DNA of 64,000 nucleotides from Oceanospirillaceae bacterium (lineage in GTDB: Bacteria > Pseudomonadota > Gammaproteobacteria > Pseudomonadales > Litoribrevibacteraceae), in contig JADFAD010000001.1 of assembly GCA_015665455.1 (NCBI GenBank), forward strand, positions 248,001 to 312,000. The letters are read 5' to 3'. The notes below the pieces were generated by a model that made no database searches, had not been told where the DNA came from, and saw only the letters and a program-made list of their open reading frames with translations. Positions 54,821-61,392 of the stretch are shown here, in pieces. A program made the position numbers and the translations under genes. Positions within the stretch are counted from its first letter, which is position 1, and every line of letters begins with the position of its first letter.

Positions 54821-54966
54821 CTAATCCCTAGTTCTCTTGCTTTCTATTTTCTCGTTTTTTTAAGTCGTTTATTTTCTTTTCGATGTCTTATTGCCGCTTT
54901 TGCCGCTTGCCGCCTGATTTTTATCTTTGGTTTTTATAAGTCTTTGTTTTTATTGGTTTAAAATTA

Positions 54967-55435: not shown

Positions 55436-55876
55436 ATGTCACTAGGAAATGTATTTGATATTGCCGGAACAGGCATTATGGCTCAGTCTATTCGCCTGAA
55501 TACAACGGCCAGTAACATTGCAAACGCTGAGACAGTGAGCAGCAGTATCGATGAAACCTATCGTGCGAGACACCCTGTTTTTTCACAGATTCATAAGGAT
55601 CAAATGGGGTACAAGTTCGAAGGTGTAGACGTGAATGAAGATATTGGTAACGGTGTACATGTTCTTGGTGTGGTTGAAAGTGATGCACCTCTAGAGGCGC
55701 GATATAACCCTGAGCATCCCATGGCGGATGAAGAGGGTTATGTGTATTACCCGAATGTGAATATTGTGGAAGAAATGGCAAATATGATTTCAGCGTCTCG
55801 CTCGTATCAAACGAACGTCGATATTATGAATACCGCCAAAACAATGATGCAACAAGTCCTGACTCTGGGTCAGTAA
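55436..55876 (+). CDS. flgC: flagellar basal body rod protein FlgC
   Basis: FlgC is a proximal rod protein assembled with FlgB and FlgF. The 146-residue product has the N-terminal LNTTASNIANAETVSSS rod motif and the C-terminal helix ASRSYQTNVDIMNTAKTMM. It follows flgB by 12 bases with a GGAG ribosome-binding site. Confidence 0.97.
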   Translation: MSLGNVFDIAGTGIMAQSIRLNTTASNIANAETVSSSIDETYRARHPVFSQIHKDQMGYKFEGVDVNEDIGNGVHVLGVVESDAPLEARYNPEHPMADEEGYVYYPNVNIVEEMANMISASRSYQTNVDIMNTAKTMMQQVLTLGQ

Positions 55877-55911
55877 GTACAACGCCTAAGAATGATTAAA
55901 GGTGAAAGAAT

Positions 55912-56595
55912 ATGAGTGATATTAATACTGCTACTCAAACGGATGCGTTATCTGCTTACCGAACTCAGAGTACGACCAGTTCTACAGAGTCATCCAATGA
56001 GTTAGGTCAAGATCAGTTTCTTGAGTTGCTGGTGGCTCAGTTAAATAACCAGGACCCACTCGATCCGCAAGAGAATGGTGACTTTATTGCAGAGCTGGCG
56101 CAATTCAGCTCGGTAGAAGGCATTGATAAGCTGAATACCAGTGTGGATTCATTGCTGAGTGATTATAAGTCGAGCCAAGCATTGCAGGCGTCATCTCTGG
56201 TGGGGCGGCAAGTGGTGGTTCCGAACAGTAATGCAAACTGGTCTGGCTCTGGCAGTGTGCCTGCGACGGTTGATGTGCCTGCTGGCGCTACCAACGTTAA
56301 GGTTGGTGTGTACGTCAATGGCAGTGATCAGTTGGTTGCAGAGATTCCGGTTGATAATGCCATTGAGGGCGAAAACCCTGTTTCTTGGGATGGCACGGAT
56401 GGTAGCGGCAATATTTTGGCTTCCGGGTCTTATGAGTTCAGGGCGACAGGTGTTGTGGATGGCAGCAGTGAAGCCATGCAGGTTTACGGTTCAGCAAAGG
56501 TTAATAGTGTGACATTAACCGGTGGGGAAATGATGCTGAATGTTGCCGGTCTTGGAAAGATTCCGCTCTCTGAAGTTCGAGAAATATCTGAATAA
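55912..56595 (+). CDS. flgD: flagellar hook assembly (capping) protein FlgD
   Basis: FlgD caps the growing hook and guides FlgE polymerisation. The 227-residue product has the conserved N-terminal QDQFLELLVAQLNNQDPLDP and AELAQFSSVEGIDKL segments and a C-terminal Ig/FlgD-like domain with NPVSWDGTDGSGNILASGSY. It ends 144 bases before the flgE start; that gap contains a base-paired element. Confidence 0.96.
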   Translation: MSDINTATQTDALSAYRTQSTTSSTESSNELGQDQFLELLVAQLNNQDPLDPQENGDFIAELAQFSSVEGIDKLNTSVDSLLSDYKSSQALQASSLVGRQVVVPNSNANWSGSGSVPATVDVPAGATNVKVGVYVNGSDQLVAEIPVDNAIEGENPVSWDGTDGSGNILASGSYEFRATGVVDGSSEAMQVYGSAKVNSVTLTGGEMMLNVAGLGKIPLSEVREISE

Positions 56596-56622
56596 CTTCA
56601 CGGATAGGTATTAAACAAATCG

Positions 56623-56680
56623 AGCTGTTTGGTCTAGGTGAGTTACTTACTGAGTTGCTTAGTTACTGTACCAAATAGCT
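56623..56680 (+). other. base-paired element in the flgD-flgE gap
   Basis: An 11-bp outer stem (AGCTGTTTGGT at 56623-56633 with ACCAAATAGCT at 56670-56680, one G-U pair) closes a 36-base loop. Inside it ACTGAG (56649-56654) can pair with CTTAGT (56658-56663). There is no T tract, so it is not a standard terminator. It may be a processing or stabilising structure upstream of the abundantly needed hook protein. Confidence 0.6.
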
Positions 56681-56739
56681 GAATTAGATTTCTATTGTAT
56701 GCCCGCTTTGTGGCGTACATGGCTAGAGAGGATAGAGTT

Positions 56740-58779
56740 ATGTCATTTGGAGTCGGCTTAACGGGCCTTAAAGGGGCTCAAACTGAACTGGACGTTAGGG
56801 GGCATAATATTGCCAATGCCGGGACAGTAGGTTTCAAGCAATCTCGAGTAGAGTTTGGTGATCTATACGCAGCCAATGTCAGTACGAATGGCTCCGCTGG
56901 GCAAGGGGTAAGTGTTAATAAAATCGCTCAGCAGTTTAATGGCGGTGATATTAACTTTACTGAGAATAATTTGGACTTGGCGATCAACGGGGAAGGTTTT
57001 TTCGTTGTTCAAAGTGATCTTGGTGAACAGTTCTATACTCGATCTGGTATGTTCAGCCTAAACAGTGAAGGCTATATCGTTACGAATACGGGTGAGCAGC
57101 TTCAAGGGTTTGGCGTTGCTGAAGAGCTTCAGTTAGATACTAAACCTAACCCATCGGGTGGGCTTGGTTCTATTCAAATTGATGAAGCGGACATGGCACC
57201 GAATCGTACCACGGACGTTGATACTCAGTTTAACTTGAATGCGGCTGATGAATACAAAACAGGTGGGTTGCCGGCAAGTACGACTGGGACTGGTATTAGT
57301 GTTGCTCAAACCGGTTTGACCAATGGATATCAGGCGCCTACGGGCACCAATGTGATTCAGGTGGTTAATGCAGGAACAAGCCCAAATCAGGTGGTTTCCG
57401 ATGTGAGTTGGTCTGCAAATGCTTCAGCATTTGATATTGCTGCGGTGGTGACGGGCATTGAAGGGGCTACGGCTTCAGCGTCGACTACCGTTCAATTAAC
57501 TAACTGGAATACCGCTCAAAATGCAACGTTGGATGGTTTACCTTTAACCACGACGGACCCTGCGGACGCTAACTTTGGTGTTGGCAGTGCCTTAGCGGCA
57601 GAAATCAGTGGCCGAGCAAACTACTCGGCAACCTATGATGCCGCCACCGATACTTTAACCGTAGTTAATGCTCTAGGTAATGATATTTCATTGGCAATTA
57701 ACGATGCAGCTGACCCGGTTTCACCGGGTGCAGGTTCTATGGATGTGGCGGGTGTGATAACCGGCACCGCATCTGCGGCTGCCACTACAACGCCTGGTGC
57801 GGGTAACGAAGTGACCGTTGGGGGTTATGTCGACATTATTTTAGATCCGGGTTTGTACCTTGTGAATAATGATTCGGCAACCGCTCAGAATGCTGCAGTG
57901 TTTGGGGCTGTACCGACGAATGACACCTCAGTGATACGAGCTTTTGATGCTACTGACAGTGAAAGCTATAACCATCAAACTTCCGTGACCATTTATGATT
58001 CTCTGGGTAACTCCCACGTGATGACTGAGTATTTTGTGAAAGAGCCGCCAACGTTGACCTCAACCAACCAAAACATTTGGTCCATGTATGTTTTGATTGA
58101 TGGCTACAATGTGGGTGATGCAAACCCTGCATATGACCCAACTCAGCCTGAGTCAGCGACTAATCAACAGAATTTAGCGTTAACCCAGAATTTAACGTTT
58201 GATACGACGGGGCAGTTAACCTTCCCGAATGCGGGGGCGCCGCTTTTGGTGGATGACTGGGTGCCGCGTGACGTAAACGGTAACCCGAACGGTGCTGATG
58301 GCCCTGTTCCTGGGGCTCAGCCGACTGTGCCTCCCACCAGTTCTAATTTATTGATTGATATTACCGGCAGTACTCAGCACTCCTCTACTTTTGCGATTAA
58401 TTCTCTGGCGCAGGACGGTTTTGGAACGGGAACCTTGGTAGAGATTGATGTTGATACTGATGGGCAAGTGATTGGCCGGTATACCAACAGTGAAACGAGA
58501 ACCTTTGCCTACGTTTCAATGGCGAACTTTACCAATGAGCAAGGTTTGATTCCTGTTGGGGATACTCAATGGCGGGGATCCAGTGCCGCAGGGGAGGCAG
58601 TAATTAACCTGCCGGGTACTGCTGCGCTCGGTAAAATTCAGTCTGGAGCCCTTGAAAGCTCTAACGTTGATATCTCTGATGAATTAGTTGGCCTGATCGT
58701 TGCACAACGTAACTATCAAGCAAATGCTAAGACAATCGAAACTGAAAATACCATTTCACAGACGATTCTTAATATCTAA
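56740..58779 (+). CDS. flgE: flagellar hook protein FlgE (long form)
   Basis: FlgE polymerises into the hook. I start at ATG 56740 (MSFGVGLTGLKGAQTELDV), which gives 679 residues; the in-frame upstream codons lack the conserved N-terminus. N-terminal NIANAGTVGFKQSR and C-terminal LVGLIVAQRNYQANAKTIET are conserved. About 280 extra residues relative to the Salmonella protein (403) lie in the middle (roughly residues 150-500). They form an Ala/Thr/Asn/Gly-rich, probably surface-exposed region with several degenerate repeats of cadherin- or Ig-like character. Confidence 0.95.
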   Translation: MSFGVGLTGLKGAQTELDVRGHNIANAGTVGFKQSRVEFGDLYAANVSTNGSAGQGVSVNKIAQQFNGGDINFTENNLDLAINGEGFFVVQSDLGEQFYTRSGMFSLNSEGYIVTNTGEQLQGFGVAEELQLDTKPNPSGGLGSIQIDEADMAPNRTTDVDTQFNLNAADEYKTGGLPASTTGTGISVAQTGLTNGYQAPTGTNVIQVVNAGTSPNQVVSDVSWSANASAFDIAAVVTGIEGATASASTTVQLTNWNTAQNATLDGLPLTTTDPADANFGVGSALAAEISGRANYSATYDAATDTLTVVNALGNDISLAINDAADPVSPGAGSMDVAGVITGTASAAATTTPGAGNEVTVGGYVDIILDPGLYLVNNDSATAQNAAVFGAVPTNDTSVIRAFDATDSESYNHQTSVTIYDSLGNSHVMTEYFVKEPPTLTSTNQNIWSMYVLIDGYNVGDANPAYDPTQPESATNQQNLALTQNLTFDTTGQLTFPNAGAPLLVDDWVPRDVNGNPNGADGPVPGAQPTVPPTSSNLLIDITGSTQHSSTFAINSLAQDGFGTGTLVEIDVDTDGQVIGRYTNSETRTFAYVSMANFTNEQGLIPVGDTQWRGSSAAGEAVINLPGTAALGKIQSGALESSNVDISDELVGLIVAQRNYQANAKTIETENTISQTILNI

Positions 58780-58789
58780 CGTTAATGCG

Positions 58790-58828
58790 GGTGTTCTTGG
58801 TTGAGTTTTGAACTCAGCTAAGAACACC
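58790..58828 (+). other. 17-bp hairpin in the flgE-flgF gap
   Basis: GGTGTTCTTGGTTGAGT pairs with ACTCAGCTAAGAACACC along 17 bp (two G-U pairs) around a TTTGA loop, 10 bases past the flgE stop. It is followed by ATAAAAG rather than T, so it resembles an mRNA 3'-end stabiliser or processing site more than a terminator. Confidence 0.75.
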
Positions 58829-58839
58829 ATAAAAGTTCA

Positions 58840-58894
58840 GGGAGGATGACCAACCTCCAGCCGCAGTCGCACATGGATCGTGCGGCGACTGTGG
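58840..58894 (+). other. two further hairpins in the flgE-flgF gap
   Basis: GGAGG (58841-58845) pairs with CCTCC (58854-58858). Next, CCGCAGT-CGCAC (58861-58872) pairs with GTGCG-GCG-ACTGTGG (58880-58894) through a 12-bp stem with a 3-base bulge. They lie between the first hairpin and the flgF ribosome-binding site. Confidence 0.65.
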
Positions 58895-58968
58895 TGGGCT
58901 TCTCCAAGCGATAAGTTTGGTTCTTTCGGTCAAGATATTAAGTGTTGGTTGTGATCCAGGAGTTTATT

Positions 58969-59715
58969 ATGGATAAGGCACTTTATATCTCAATGTCAGG
59001 CGCTAAGCAGAATATGTTTGCTCAGCGATCTCATGCGAATAACCTTGCCAATGCGAACACTACAGGTTTTAGAGAAGACTTTGCTCAGGCGCGAAGTCAG
59101 CCTGTATGGGGTGATTATCATCCTACACGCGCCTATGCAATGACAGAGCGTCCAGCCAGTAACTTTAAAGCGGGTTCCATGATTGAGACGGGTCGTGAAT
59201 TGGACGTGGCGATTCCTAACCAAGGCTTTTTTGTCGTTCAGGACCCTGAAGGCAATGAGGCTTTGACCCGCGCCGGTAACTTCGTTCAGGATGTAAACGG
59301 CCAGTTACTTACACCGCAGGGTTTGTCTGTGATGGGTGAAAATGGCCCAATCTCGATACCGCCTGCCAGTACAGTGAATATTGCGAACGACGGCACCATT
59401 TCTCTGATTCCTACGGATGGGCAGGCTCTGGATATTGTTGATATCGGCCGTATTCGATTAGTAAACCCTGATATTGAAACTCTGGATAAAGGAACGGATG
59501 GTCTGTTTCGAATTAAAGATCAGCCAGGGGCTACCTTTGATCAAGATCCAAATGTAACGGTTATGTCGGGCTTCTTAGAGTCCAGTAACGTTAACTCCAT
59601 TAATGCGATGACTGAAATGATGTCGCATCAGCGTCAATACGAATTGCAAGTCAAAATGATGAAGACCTCCGAGGAGAATTCCGAGAAGGTGGCAAGCTTA
59701 TTGCAAATTCAATAA
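58969..59715 (+). CDS. flgF: flagellar basal body rod protein FlgF
   Basis: FlgF is a proximal rod protein. I start at ATG 58969 after a CCAGGAG ribosome-binding site, giving 248 residues. The N-terminal motif NNLANANTTGFREDF, GRELDVAIPNQGFFVVQ in the middle, and the C-terminal TEMMSHQRQYELQVKMMKT are typical. The upstream in-frame region from 58942 is not conserved. Confidence 0.96.
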   Translation: MDKALYISMSGAKQNMFAQRSHANNLANANTTGFREDFAQARSQPVWGDYHPTRAYAMTERPASNFKAGSMIETGRELDVAIPNQGFFVVQDPEGNEALTRAGNFVQDVNGQLLTPQGLSVMGENGPISIPPASTVNIANDGTISLIPTDGQALDIVDIGRIRLVNPDIETLDKGTDGLFRIKDQPGATFDQDPNVTVMSGFLESSNVNSINAMTEMMSHQRQYELQVKMMKTSEENSEKVASLLQIQ

Positions 59716-59733
59716 TAATATAAAAAATTGACT

Positions 59734-59816
59734 GGTTAGTGACGGCAAGCGGCAGCTAAATGCCAGACTCTGAAAAGAGTTGTTAGGTGTTGAGCCGACG
59801 AGAAAGATCACTGACC
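59734..59816 (+). other. multi-branched base-paired element before flgG
   Basis: An outer 9-bp stem (GGTTAGTGA 59734-59742 with TCACTGACC 59808-59816, one G-U) and an inner CGGC/GCCG pair (59743-59746 with 59794-59797) enclose two hairpins. These are GGCA/TGCC (59751-59764) and ACTCT-GAAA-AGAGT (59767-59780, a GAAA tetraloop closing). The element ends 18 bases before the flgG start, next to the ribosome-binding site CTAGGAGAGA. Confidence 0.6.
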
Positions 59817-59834
59817 TGAGCTAGGAGAGATGTT

Positions 59835-60620
59835 ATGCACGGCGCGTTATGGGTAAGTAAAACAGGTTTGAGTGCTCAAGATACTCAATTGACCACAATT
59901 TCAAATAATCTAGCAAACGTTGCTACGGTAGGCTTTAAACGAGATCGAGCTGTCTTTCATGACTTGATGTATCAAGTACAGAAGCAACCGGGCGCCCAGT
60001 CTGCTCAAGATTCGCAGCTGCCTTCTGGTTTGCAACTTGGTACGGGTGTTCGAGTTGTAGGGACTCAAAAAGAACATACGCAAGGCACCATGCAAATTAC
60101 AGAGCAGCCTTTAGATATGGCGGTTAATGGTCGAGGTTTTTTTCAAATAACGTTACCCGATGGAACGACAGGTTATTCACGTAATGGTCAGTTTCATAAA
60201 GATGCAGATGGTAATGTTGTTAATCCTCTTGGCTTTCAATTAGAGCCTAATATTGTTATTCCTCAAGATACAACCTCCGTGAGCATTGGTCGTGATGGCA
60301 CGGTCAGTATTACTCAAGGCAATGAAACTGAAGCGACTGAAGTAGGTAATATTACCTTGGTTTCATTTGTAAACCCGGCAGGTCTTCAATCCATTGGCGA
60401 CAACTTATACGTTCAGACTAATTCTAGTGGTGATCCTGTGGAAGGAGAGCCTGGGTTAGACGGAATGGGCAGTATTTTGCAGGGCTCCTTAGAAAACTCA
60501 AACGTTGATGTGGTGGAAGAAATGGTCAACATGATCACTACGCAACGTGCCTATGAAATGAATTCAAAAGTTATTTCAACCGCAGATGAAATGCTCGGAT
60601 TTATCAGTCAGACGCTTTAA
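59835..60620 (+). CDS. flgG: flagellar basal body rod protein FlgG
   Basis: FlgG is the distal rod protein. The 261-residue product (E. coli 260) begins MHGALWVSKTGLSAQDTQL, has SNNLANVATVGFKRDRAVF, and ends with the helix MVNMITTQRAYEMNSKVIS, all family signatures. A GGAGAG ribosome-binding site precedes the start. FlgH follows after 64 bases. Confidence 0.98.
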   Translation: MHGALWVSKTGLSAQDTQLTTISNNLANVATVGFKRDRAVFHDLMYQVQKQPGAQSAQDSQLPSGLQLGTGVRVVGTQKEHTQGTMQITEQPLDMAVNGRGFFQITLPDGTTGYSRNGQFHKDADGNVVNPLGFQLEPNIVIPQDTTSVSIGRDGTVSITQGNETEATEVGNITLVSFVNPAGLQSIGDNLYVQTNSSGDPVEGEPGLDGMGSILQGSLENSNVDVVEEMVNMITTQRAYEMNSKVISTADEMLGFISQTL

Positions 60621-60659
60621 GCGATGTTATTTATTGATGCTTAAAGTAACGATGTATTT

Positions 60660-60672
60660 GAGTAAGCTACTC
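60660..60672 (+). other. small hairpin next to the flgH ribosome-binding site
   Basis: GAGTA and TACTC pair around an AGC loop, directly before the GGGAGAAGGG ribosome-binding stretch of flgH. It might slightly hinder or define ribosome access. The stem is short. Confidence 0.35.
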
Positions 60673-60684
60673 GGGAGAAGGGCA

Positions 60685-61392
60685 ATGAAAACCAAGTTAT
60701 CACTGTTGATGTTTACTGTAGCGGTAACAACTCTGTCCGGTTGTAATAAAGAAATTGTAAAACCGAATGATCCTATGTATGCACCGATTCAGCCAACGGC
60801 GCTTGTGCCTCCTGAACGGCAAGATGGCTCCTTATATCAAGCAAGATATAACATGGGGCTATTTAATGACCGACGGGCACATCGTATTGGCGATATTATT
60901 ACGGTCGTACTGTCTGAGAATACAAATGCAAAGAAGTCTGCGAATACTGAGCTAACCAAAGAACAAGACATTCAGTTTGATCCGGGTATTTTGCTTGGTA
61001 AAGACATGGGCAATCAGATTACCAGCGCGATCCCGCTTCTTGAGAATATTGGTTTATTGACCAGTTTATCCCAAAACCGAGAGTTTACGGGAGAGGGTGA
61101 CAGCGATCAAAGCAATAGCCTTTCTGGCCAAATTACTGTGACTGTGTCGAATGTTATGCCTAATGGTGTTTTGGAGATTCGCGGTGAGAAATGGATGACC
61201 TTTAATCAAGGTGATGAGTACATCCGTATTCGTGGTCTTGTGAGGCCGGATGATATTGCAGACGATAATACCATTATGTCTAATCGTCTTGCGGATGCAC
61301 GTATTACTTACAGCGGTACGGGTGACTTGGCTGATGCAAATCGGCAGGGTTGGATGGGACGATTCTTTAGCAGTGAATATTGGCCTTTCTAA
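60685..61392 (+). CDS. flgH: flagellar basal body L-ring protein FlgH
   Basis: FlgH is a lipoprotein that forms the outer-membrane L ring. I start at ATG 60685 (235 residues) because it has the ribosome-binding site and gives a proper signal peptide ending in the lipobox TLSGC. Family segments are GSLYQARYNMGLFNDRRAHRI, GDIITVVLSENTNAKKSA, and RIRGLVRPDDIADDNTIMS. The longer frame from 60586 overlaps flgG and is rejected. Confidence 0.96.
   Translation: MKTKLSLLMFTVAVTTLSGCNKEIVKPNDPMYAPIQPTALVPPERQDGSLYQARYNMGLFNDRRAHRIGDIITVVLSENTNAKKSANTELTKEQDIQFDPGILLGKDMGNQITSAIPLLENIGLLTSLSQNREFTGEGDSDQSNSLSGQITVTVSNVMPNGVLEIRGEKWMTFNQGDEYIRIRGLVRPDDIADDNTIMSNRLADARITYSGTGDLADANRQGWMGRFFSSEYWPF

Follow-up and report, generated by a model that had tools for sequence, protein, structure and literature searches.

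The gap between flgF and flgG of an Oceanospirillaceae bacterium contains an 83-nt stretch, 59734-59816 of the window (the whole stretch of DNA that was analysed, 64,000 nucleotides), that had been read from its letters as a multi-branched RNA-like fold ending beside the flgG ribosome-binding site. The question raised by this locus is what a structured stretch does between two genes of the flagellar rod. The rod needs its parts in fixed ratios; the excerpted part of a review gives about 26 copies of FlgG and about 6 copies of FlgF per flagellum, and the portions of the literature found do not explain how this difference between FlgF and FlgG is brought about in polar flagellates. The sequence evidence indicates that the stretch is probably the 5′ leader of an flgG transcript, started within the flg operon by a sigma-54 promoter embedded in the final codons of flgF. 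The better-supported element is a DNA one, the predicted sigma-54 promoter in the flgF end, which lies outside 59734-59816.

Locus and features

The genes at the end of the window, on the + strand, were taken to be flgB to flgJ by recognised resemblance of sequence. Orthologues of the flg genes of the window were found by tblastn. Gaps in the operon are 144 nt (flgD-flgE), 189 nt (flgE-flgF) and 119 nt (flgF-flgG). Gap length was rejected as a marker of stoichiometry steps, the flgE-flgF gap being expected to be confounded across loci by a promoter of its own. The following features are referred to below.

58969-59715, + strand: flgF coding sequence, found by tblastn; start taken from orthologues and SD (the ORF list gives a longer GTG start); last codons overlap the predicted sigma-54 promoter
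59690-59705, + strand: predicted sigma-54 −24/−12 promoter TGGCAAGCTTATTGCA, 11/12 specified bases of TGGCACGNNNNTTGCW, with codon tests
59716, + strand: predicted transcription start, from the spacing rule, 1 base past the flgF stop
59716-59834, + strand: predicted untranslated leader of flgG, 119 nt, equal to the gap from the flgF stop to the flgG ATG
59728-59743, + strand: block TTGACTGGTTAGTGAC, within which TTGACTnnTTAGTG is common to the related genome G001; contains the 5′ arm of the closing stem
59734-59742, + strand: 5′ arm of the 9-bp closing stem of the predicted fold
59743-59755, + strand: candidate activator box CGGCAAGCGGCAG, at +28 of the leader (start = +1); its CGGC doubles as the 5′ half of the inner stem
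59766-59781, + strand: apical hairpin of the predicted fold, 6 bp, GAAA loop at 59772-59775
59794-59797, + strand: GCCG, 3′ half of the inner 4-bp stem, pair probability about 0.84
59808-59816, + strand: 3′ arm of the closing stem of the predicted fold
59823-59827, + strand: flgG SD AGGAG, unpaired in the predicted fold
59835-60620, + strand: flgG, distal rod protein, from its ORF and orthologues

A predicted sigma-54 promoter in the flgF end

The site TGGCAAGCTTATTGCA lies in the flgF codons GTG GCA AGC TTA TTG CAA and matches the sigma-54 consensus TGGCACGNNNNTTGCW at 11 of the 12 specified bases, with standard spacing and with the −24 GG and −12 GC intact. Transcription is predicted to start at 59716, so that the 119-nt flgF-flgG gap would be the leader of flgG. 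The genome contains a sigma-54 gene (Sigma54_DBD match, E = 3.7e-70) and genes of the FleQ type. A weak sigma-70-like match (9/12) overlaps the site and is at chance level, with 2 found and 2.0 expected.

Loci were scored by a criterion set after an initial scan: at least 9/12 bases, GG and TGC intact, and a site starting 21-29 nt before the end of flgF. Of 53 non-redundant loci, 23 had such a site, at 10/12 or better in 20 cases; none was present in 286 ends of flgC, flgD, flgE, flgG, flgH and flgI. It was absent from 30 of the 53; part of the P. fluorescens group also lacks it. Forty later loci from 38 further genera contained it in 11 cases and lacked it in 29.

Codon choice was then compared within the peptide. 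In 31 loci with a peptide ending in xLQ, TTG encoded the −12 leucine in 19, vs 7.2 expected from codon use in the flg genes of each locus (P = 2e-6), and the leucine before it in 2/23, vs 6.1 expected. The −24 GG was found in 17/19 loci with TTG vs 2/12 without (Fisher 8e-5). Sixteen of the later loci have the peptide; TTG was used in 8 of these, with 3.95 expected from flgF (P = 0.02), and the −24 GG was found in 7/8 with TTG vs 3/8 without, which alone is no significant replication (Fisher 0.12). Pooling both sets gave Fisher 1e-5 for the association of GG with TTG, a value that is too small, as are the other P values of the codon tests, because the loci are related by descent. The peptide ALLQ itself favours part of the sigma-54 motif. 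Judged by these comparisons, the flgF-end site appears to be conserved beyond coding constraint.

G001, the only other genome of the family among those compared, is 95% identical to the window in FlgG and 87% in FlgF. In its flgF the same 16 bases fall inside an unbroken run of 9 identical codons, longer than any other in the gene; 109 of the 217 codons for identical residues are identical between the two. Genome-wide, sigma-54 sites with one mismatch are no commoner than matches to a reversed control pattern (31 vs 29). Five of the 31 lie within 25 kb of flagellar genes (P = 6e-7, the region having been chosen afterwards) and precede flgA, flgB, flgG, an ORF after a flagellin-like gene, and fliD; the labels flgA, flgB, fliD and flagellin-like are our assumption, made by recognising the sequences and not by a family search.

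In 11 Pseudomonas loci (L069, L070, L072-L076, L078, L080-L082) ATGAC stands for ATGGC, with the −24 GG gone and a gap of 57-68 nt vs about 45 nt. In L063, L066, L067 and L071 the −24 GG is also gone and the gap stays at 45-46 nt. At L059 the flgF-flgG gap measures 248 nt and folds into several strong hairpins (z = −5.0); the scan gave no sigma-54 site for this locus.

The predicted leader fold and its counterparts in relatives

Most parts of the fold described in the sequence-only reading were recovered by prediction. The closing stem of 9 bp (59734-59742 with 59808-59816) includes one G-U pair and has pair probabilities of 0.97-1.0; the inner CGGC (59743-59746) pairs with GCCG (59794-59797); the GAAA-capped hairpin (59766-59781) is present; and the fold does adjoin the flgG ribosome-binding site, its last base lying 6 nt before the SD AGGAG (59823-59827). 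The multi-branched shape, with two hairpins bracketed by the stems, was replaced by one interrupted hairpin, at −30.3 vs −27.3 kcal/mol for the two-hairpin form, the first hairpin of which (GGCA/TGCC) has a pair probability of 0.02. The 83-nt fold is predicted to leave 18 nt at the 5′ end of the leader and the SD single-stranded. The SD is unpaired in the MFE structure of the window leader and 60% paired in that of G001.

The flgF-flgG gap of G001 is 124 nt long. MAFFT misplaces the 3′ half of the two leaders; the alignment used was anchored by hand at TTGACTnnTTAGTG and is gapless from the SD. The closing-stem arms of G001, AATTAGTGG and CCATCTGATT, form 9 pairs with one bulge, at the same distance from the SD as in the window, and at 3/9 pairs both bases differ from the window, two G-C pairs being A-U in G001 and one A-U pair being G-C. 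The outer seven pairs have probabilities of 0.32 to 0.77, and the two inner ones exceed 0.99. Free folding of G001 gives an MFE structure that lacks the whole closing stem; the constrained fold is 0.6 kcal/mol worse. None of 400 dinucleotide shuffles of the gap between arm and SD reached the arm pairing of G001. Under a strict control, with conserved columns fixed and the rest resampled, the stem was reached in 133/2000 by helix length and in 51/400 by pair probability, i.e. 7-13%, and the covariation support for the closing stem from G001 is at most suggestive.

A short hairpin of other sequence was found before the SD in 16 distinct Pseudomonas-like leaders. Three of its 6 pairs are changed on both sides (33/500 shuffles reach 3), its covariation score was reached by 0/500 shuffles, and its outermost pair fails in 7/16. 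These counts include L058 and L061 and refer to 16 of 31 leaders, the other 15 being uncounted as same-letter repeats or as one base out of register. Fourteen hand-picked leaders without L058 and L061 gave 3 changed pairs (7/500 shuffles). Hairpins in the flgG leader exist elsewhere, and they are different elements from the window fold.

Across the order, the idea that flgG leaders share a hairpin immediately upstream of the SD was rejected, with 6.53 vs 6.38 paired bases in 36 flgF-flgG gaps with a recognisable SD; 34/133 gaps (2/38 flgF-flgG gaps) were dropped in this comparison, their SD being unrecognisable or their upstream part too short. Pairing of the SD itself was lower in flgF-flgG gaps at P = 0.01, one among several comparisons and given no weight. 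Mean z over flgF-flgG gaps of at least 40 nt was −1.24 (33 loci, 8 below −2), and the corresponding means were −0.48 for flgD-flgE (21), −0.43 for flgG-flgH (17) and −2.96 for flgE-flgF (35).

It is quite possible that the fold is functional in itself, as a cis-acting RNA controlling the translation of flgG or the stability of its mRNA, irrespective of the promoter. Such a function would agree with the high pair probability of the closing stem, with an arm pairing in G001 above all 400 dinucleotide shuffles and three pairs compensated on both sides, with the lower mean z of flgF-flgG than of flgD-flgE gaps, and with the covariation of the different hairpin in the 16 Pseudomonas-like leaders. 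It is weakened by the strict control, by the near-equal pairing before the SD over 36 loci, by the 24/77 other gaps of the genome that fold as well and by the lack of an Rfam match; the 5′ arm moreover lies within a block that is maybe conserved as DNA. From the proposed likeness to a cis-regulatory RNA there remain a structured leader beside the flgG ribosome-binding site and a closing stem that recurs in G001 with 3 compensated pairs. The leader is not multi-branched, leaves the SD uncovered, belongs to no Rfam family and has no order-wide counterpart before the SD, and its strict covariation control is only suggestive.

A CGGCAA-type box in the leader

Enriched 6-mers were counted in 35 flgF-flgG gaps with no motif preset. 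The top three were AGCGGC, GCGGCA and CGGCAA, each in 9 loci vs 1.6-2.2 expected. Over all 55 flgF-flgG gaps of at least 20 nt, CGGCAA was found in 9 loci vs 2.5 expected (P = 0.005), and in a second locus set in 3/28 vs 0.8 expected (P = 0.047). It was also enriched in flgE-flgF gaps (14/43 loci vs 5.0 expected) and mildly in flgD-flgE (3/36, P = 0.04) and flgH-flgI (3/18, P = 0.01) gaps, so the box is not specific to flgG.

Within the genome, boxes of this type were found in the predicted sigma-54 leaders of flgA (+13), flgG (+27), flgK (+25) and the ORF C2:318555 (+24), counted with the start as 0; C2:318555 has a second one at −91. Three lie at −103 to −87 of flgB, and fliD has none; the window average is 0.66 per kb. 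Exact TTGCCGCTT is not enriched genome-wide (44 vs 60 for the reversed control); 3/44 exact sites are no more than 100 bp away from a flagellar sigma-54 site, positions being compared by eye. The leader of G001 contains no exact CGGCAA. The box is read as a candidate site of a flagellar sigma-54 activator. The CGGC of the inner RNA stem belongs to it, and part of the fold may thus be conserved as DNA.

A reading under which the inverted repeats are DNA sites only, i.e. candidate activator boxes on double-stranded DNA with the RNA fold as a by-product, is possible and is held with some reserve. Half-sites of the FleQ kind, TTGAC/GTGAC, would perhaps be among such sites. The reading would account for AGCGGC, GCGGCA and CGGCAA as the top 6-mers and for a box at +13 to +27 in four predicted sigma-54 leaders; it would leave aside the 3′ arm of the closing stem and the hairpin with the GAAA loop, which are not copies of the box, and the outer pairs changed on both sides in G001, a change that DNA half-sites do not need. 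The missing exact CGGCAA in the G001 leader also counts against it. In Pseudomonas fluorescens F113 and P. putida KT2440, flgG has an entry of its own beside flgF in a FleQ ChIP-seq table (PMC6120874, excerpt), in agreement with activator sites on DNA.

Three TTGCCG repeats at 54891-54912 of the window are enhancer-like; the predicted sigma-54 start of flgB lies about 90-100 bp downstream of them. At locus L029 (genome G021) the flgG leader, in the flgF-flgG gap, contains near-direct repeats of TTTAAGTTAGTAG that may be activator sites of another type.

Fold strength and searches for known elements

The chosen 83 nt gave z = −4.36, and 0/200 shuffles folded as well. The whole flgF-flgG gap gave z = −2.7, −3.7 (SD stretch fixed) and −2.9 in three runs with different shuffles. 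As background, same-strand gaps of 80-200 nt were taken from the window and 400 kb of the ~4.85 Mb genome, the flgF-flgG gap itself being excluded. Twenty-four of these 77 other gaps have z as low, and 13/77 have an energy per base as low, in a set whose genes were called by a simple ORF rule and whose gaps may hold terminators. The flgF-flgG fold beats shuffles yet is not exceptional among gaps of its own genome.

It is unlikely that the structure is a chance one, in an ordinary intergenic gap that folds well. The ordinary rank among genome gaps and the 7-13% of the strict covariation control would fit chance, and the failure of all 200 shuffles to fold as well, with the same closing stem at the same SD distance in G001, argues against it. 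A role as intrinsic terminator or attenuator is very improbable for the flgF-flgG fold: a stable stem does stand in an intra-operon spacer, but no T run follows it, no terminator-like match was found in the gap, and flgG to flgJ continue on the same strand.

Rfam 15 covariance models were run over the whole window at gathering scores; the sole match was a tRNA elsewhere, with none in the flgF-flgG gap. A search of 55800-60800 gave two matches, at E 1.1 and 3.8, both inside flgE, and again none in the gap. A repeat or mobile element was rejected, the flgF-flgG spacer being single-copy in the genome; the flgD-flgE and flgE-flgF spacers are single-copy too, with other matches of 14-30 nt at E 0.6 or more. 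The flg region gave no match in a plasmid collection.

Proposed mechanism

For the leader of a sigma-54 flgG transcript, the reading preferred here, the promoter, the box and the fold are supported by sequence statistics, and from these we infer the start site, the activator, a role in dosage and any function of the RNA. Sigma-54 RNA polymerase would wait at the flgF end (59690-59705) and begin transcription at 59716. Bound to the CGGCAA-type box in the leader (~+28), a flagellar activator such as those of the FleQ/FlrC/FleR type would open the complex. By this means flgG and the genes after it would gain expression of their own on top of upstream read-through. The leader RNA would form a compact 83-nt interrupted hairpin with the SD open, which would most likely protect the message or space the ribosome-binding site, rather than act as a switch.

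A conserved promoter within flgF would turn flgG into a unit with timing and dosage of its own. A wider version is put forward tentatively and is doubtful: in many Pseudomonadales the last codons of flgF may be a sigma-54 promoter setting the step from ~6 FlgF to ~26 FlgG, and several lineages may each have evolved a leader hairpin and a downstream activator box of their own there, with ~150 bases serving as codons, promoter, enhancer and leader. As a warning, structured operon spacers may be leaders of unrecognised internal transcripts and not operon-internal RNA switches.

Comparison with known systems

The idea of a sigma-54 promoter for flgG is already known elsewhere. New here are a location within flgF codons, which in many Pseudomonadales puts the predicted start at the stop codon, and the box and fold of the leader; the portions of the literature found by search contain neither an RNA structure in the flgG leader nor a sigma-54 site in flgF codons. 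A paper on the P. putida flagellar operon reportedly mapped internal promoters, possibly including one for flgG. Jyot in 2002 and Correa and Klose in 2005 are said to have described enhancers for FleQ and FlrC that lie downstream of the sigma-54 promoter. Like these downstream enhancers, the candidate box of the window lies 3′ of the predicted promoter; binding of the activator to CGGCAA is putative. Many Pseudomonas loci resemble the window in carrying a sigma-54 site in the flgF end. Their flgG leader, unlike that of the window, is mostly 45-49 nt long, with its own short hairpin and no recognisable common sequence.

In Xanthomonas citri, flgG has a sigma-54 −24/−12 sequence of its own that is linked to VemR/RpoN2; a fusion of the flgG promoter to gusA falls in a vemR rpoN2 double mutant, and neither gene alone restores it (PMC6637908, excerpt). 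For Rhodobacter sphaeroides, the same excerpt refers to a flgGHIJKL unit that depends on sigma-54 (PMC6637908). The flgG of the window is like that of X. citri in having its own sigma-54 promoter, here a predicted one. Unlike the reading given for the window, the X. citri account, as far as excerpted, neither places the site in flgF codons nor describes a leader structure (PMC6637908).

Conserved intragenic sigma-54 promoters that drive mRNAs are reported for Escherichia coli in the excerpt of PMC4591121. These have unusually long 5′ UTRs, whereas the start in the window is predicted 1 base past the flgF stop. The flgF promoter of Vibrio cholerae depends on sigma-54/FlrBC (PMC7064773, excerpt). 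The window would be similar in having rod genes in separately driven sigma-54 units with a flagellar two-component system; the V. cholerae promoter lies between flgE and flgF, and that predicted in the window lies in flgF before flgG (PMC7064773, excerpt).

Neighbouring spacers

The flgF-flgG fold had been described as the last of three structured spacers in a row. Structure is very strong in the flgE-flgF spacer (z = −6.5) and moderate in the flgF-flgG spacer; the flgD-flgE spacer is within chance (z = −1.3).

The flgE-flgF gap folds most strongly of the 78 gaps. It includes a block at 58833-58899 of which 60 bases are 92% identical in G001 and the surroundings are not. The block holds the complementary arms GGAGG/CCTCC and AGTCG/CGACT, with GGA between the latter pair. 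In 390 genomes of the order a good match was found only in the window genome and G001; five others gave 21-43 bases at E 5e-4 to 7e-3. This block is a better structured-RNA candidate than the flgF-flgG fold, and a CsrA/RsmA-type site is a guess at what it may be. After flgE, at 58790-58828 of the window, stands a long near-perfect hairpin, GGTGTTCTTGGTTGAGTT/AACTCAGCTAAGAACACC, with no T run. A hairpin of different sequence stands at about the same place in G001.
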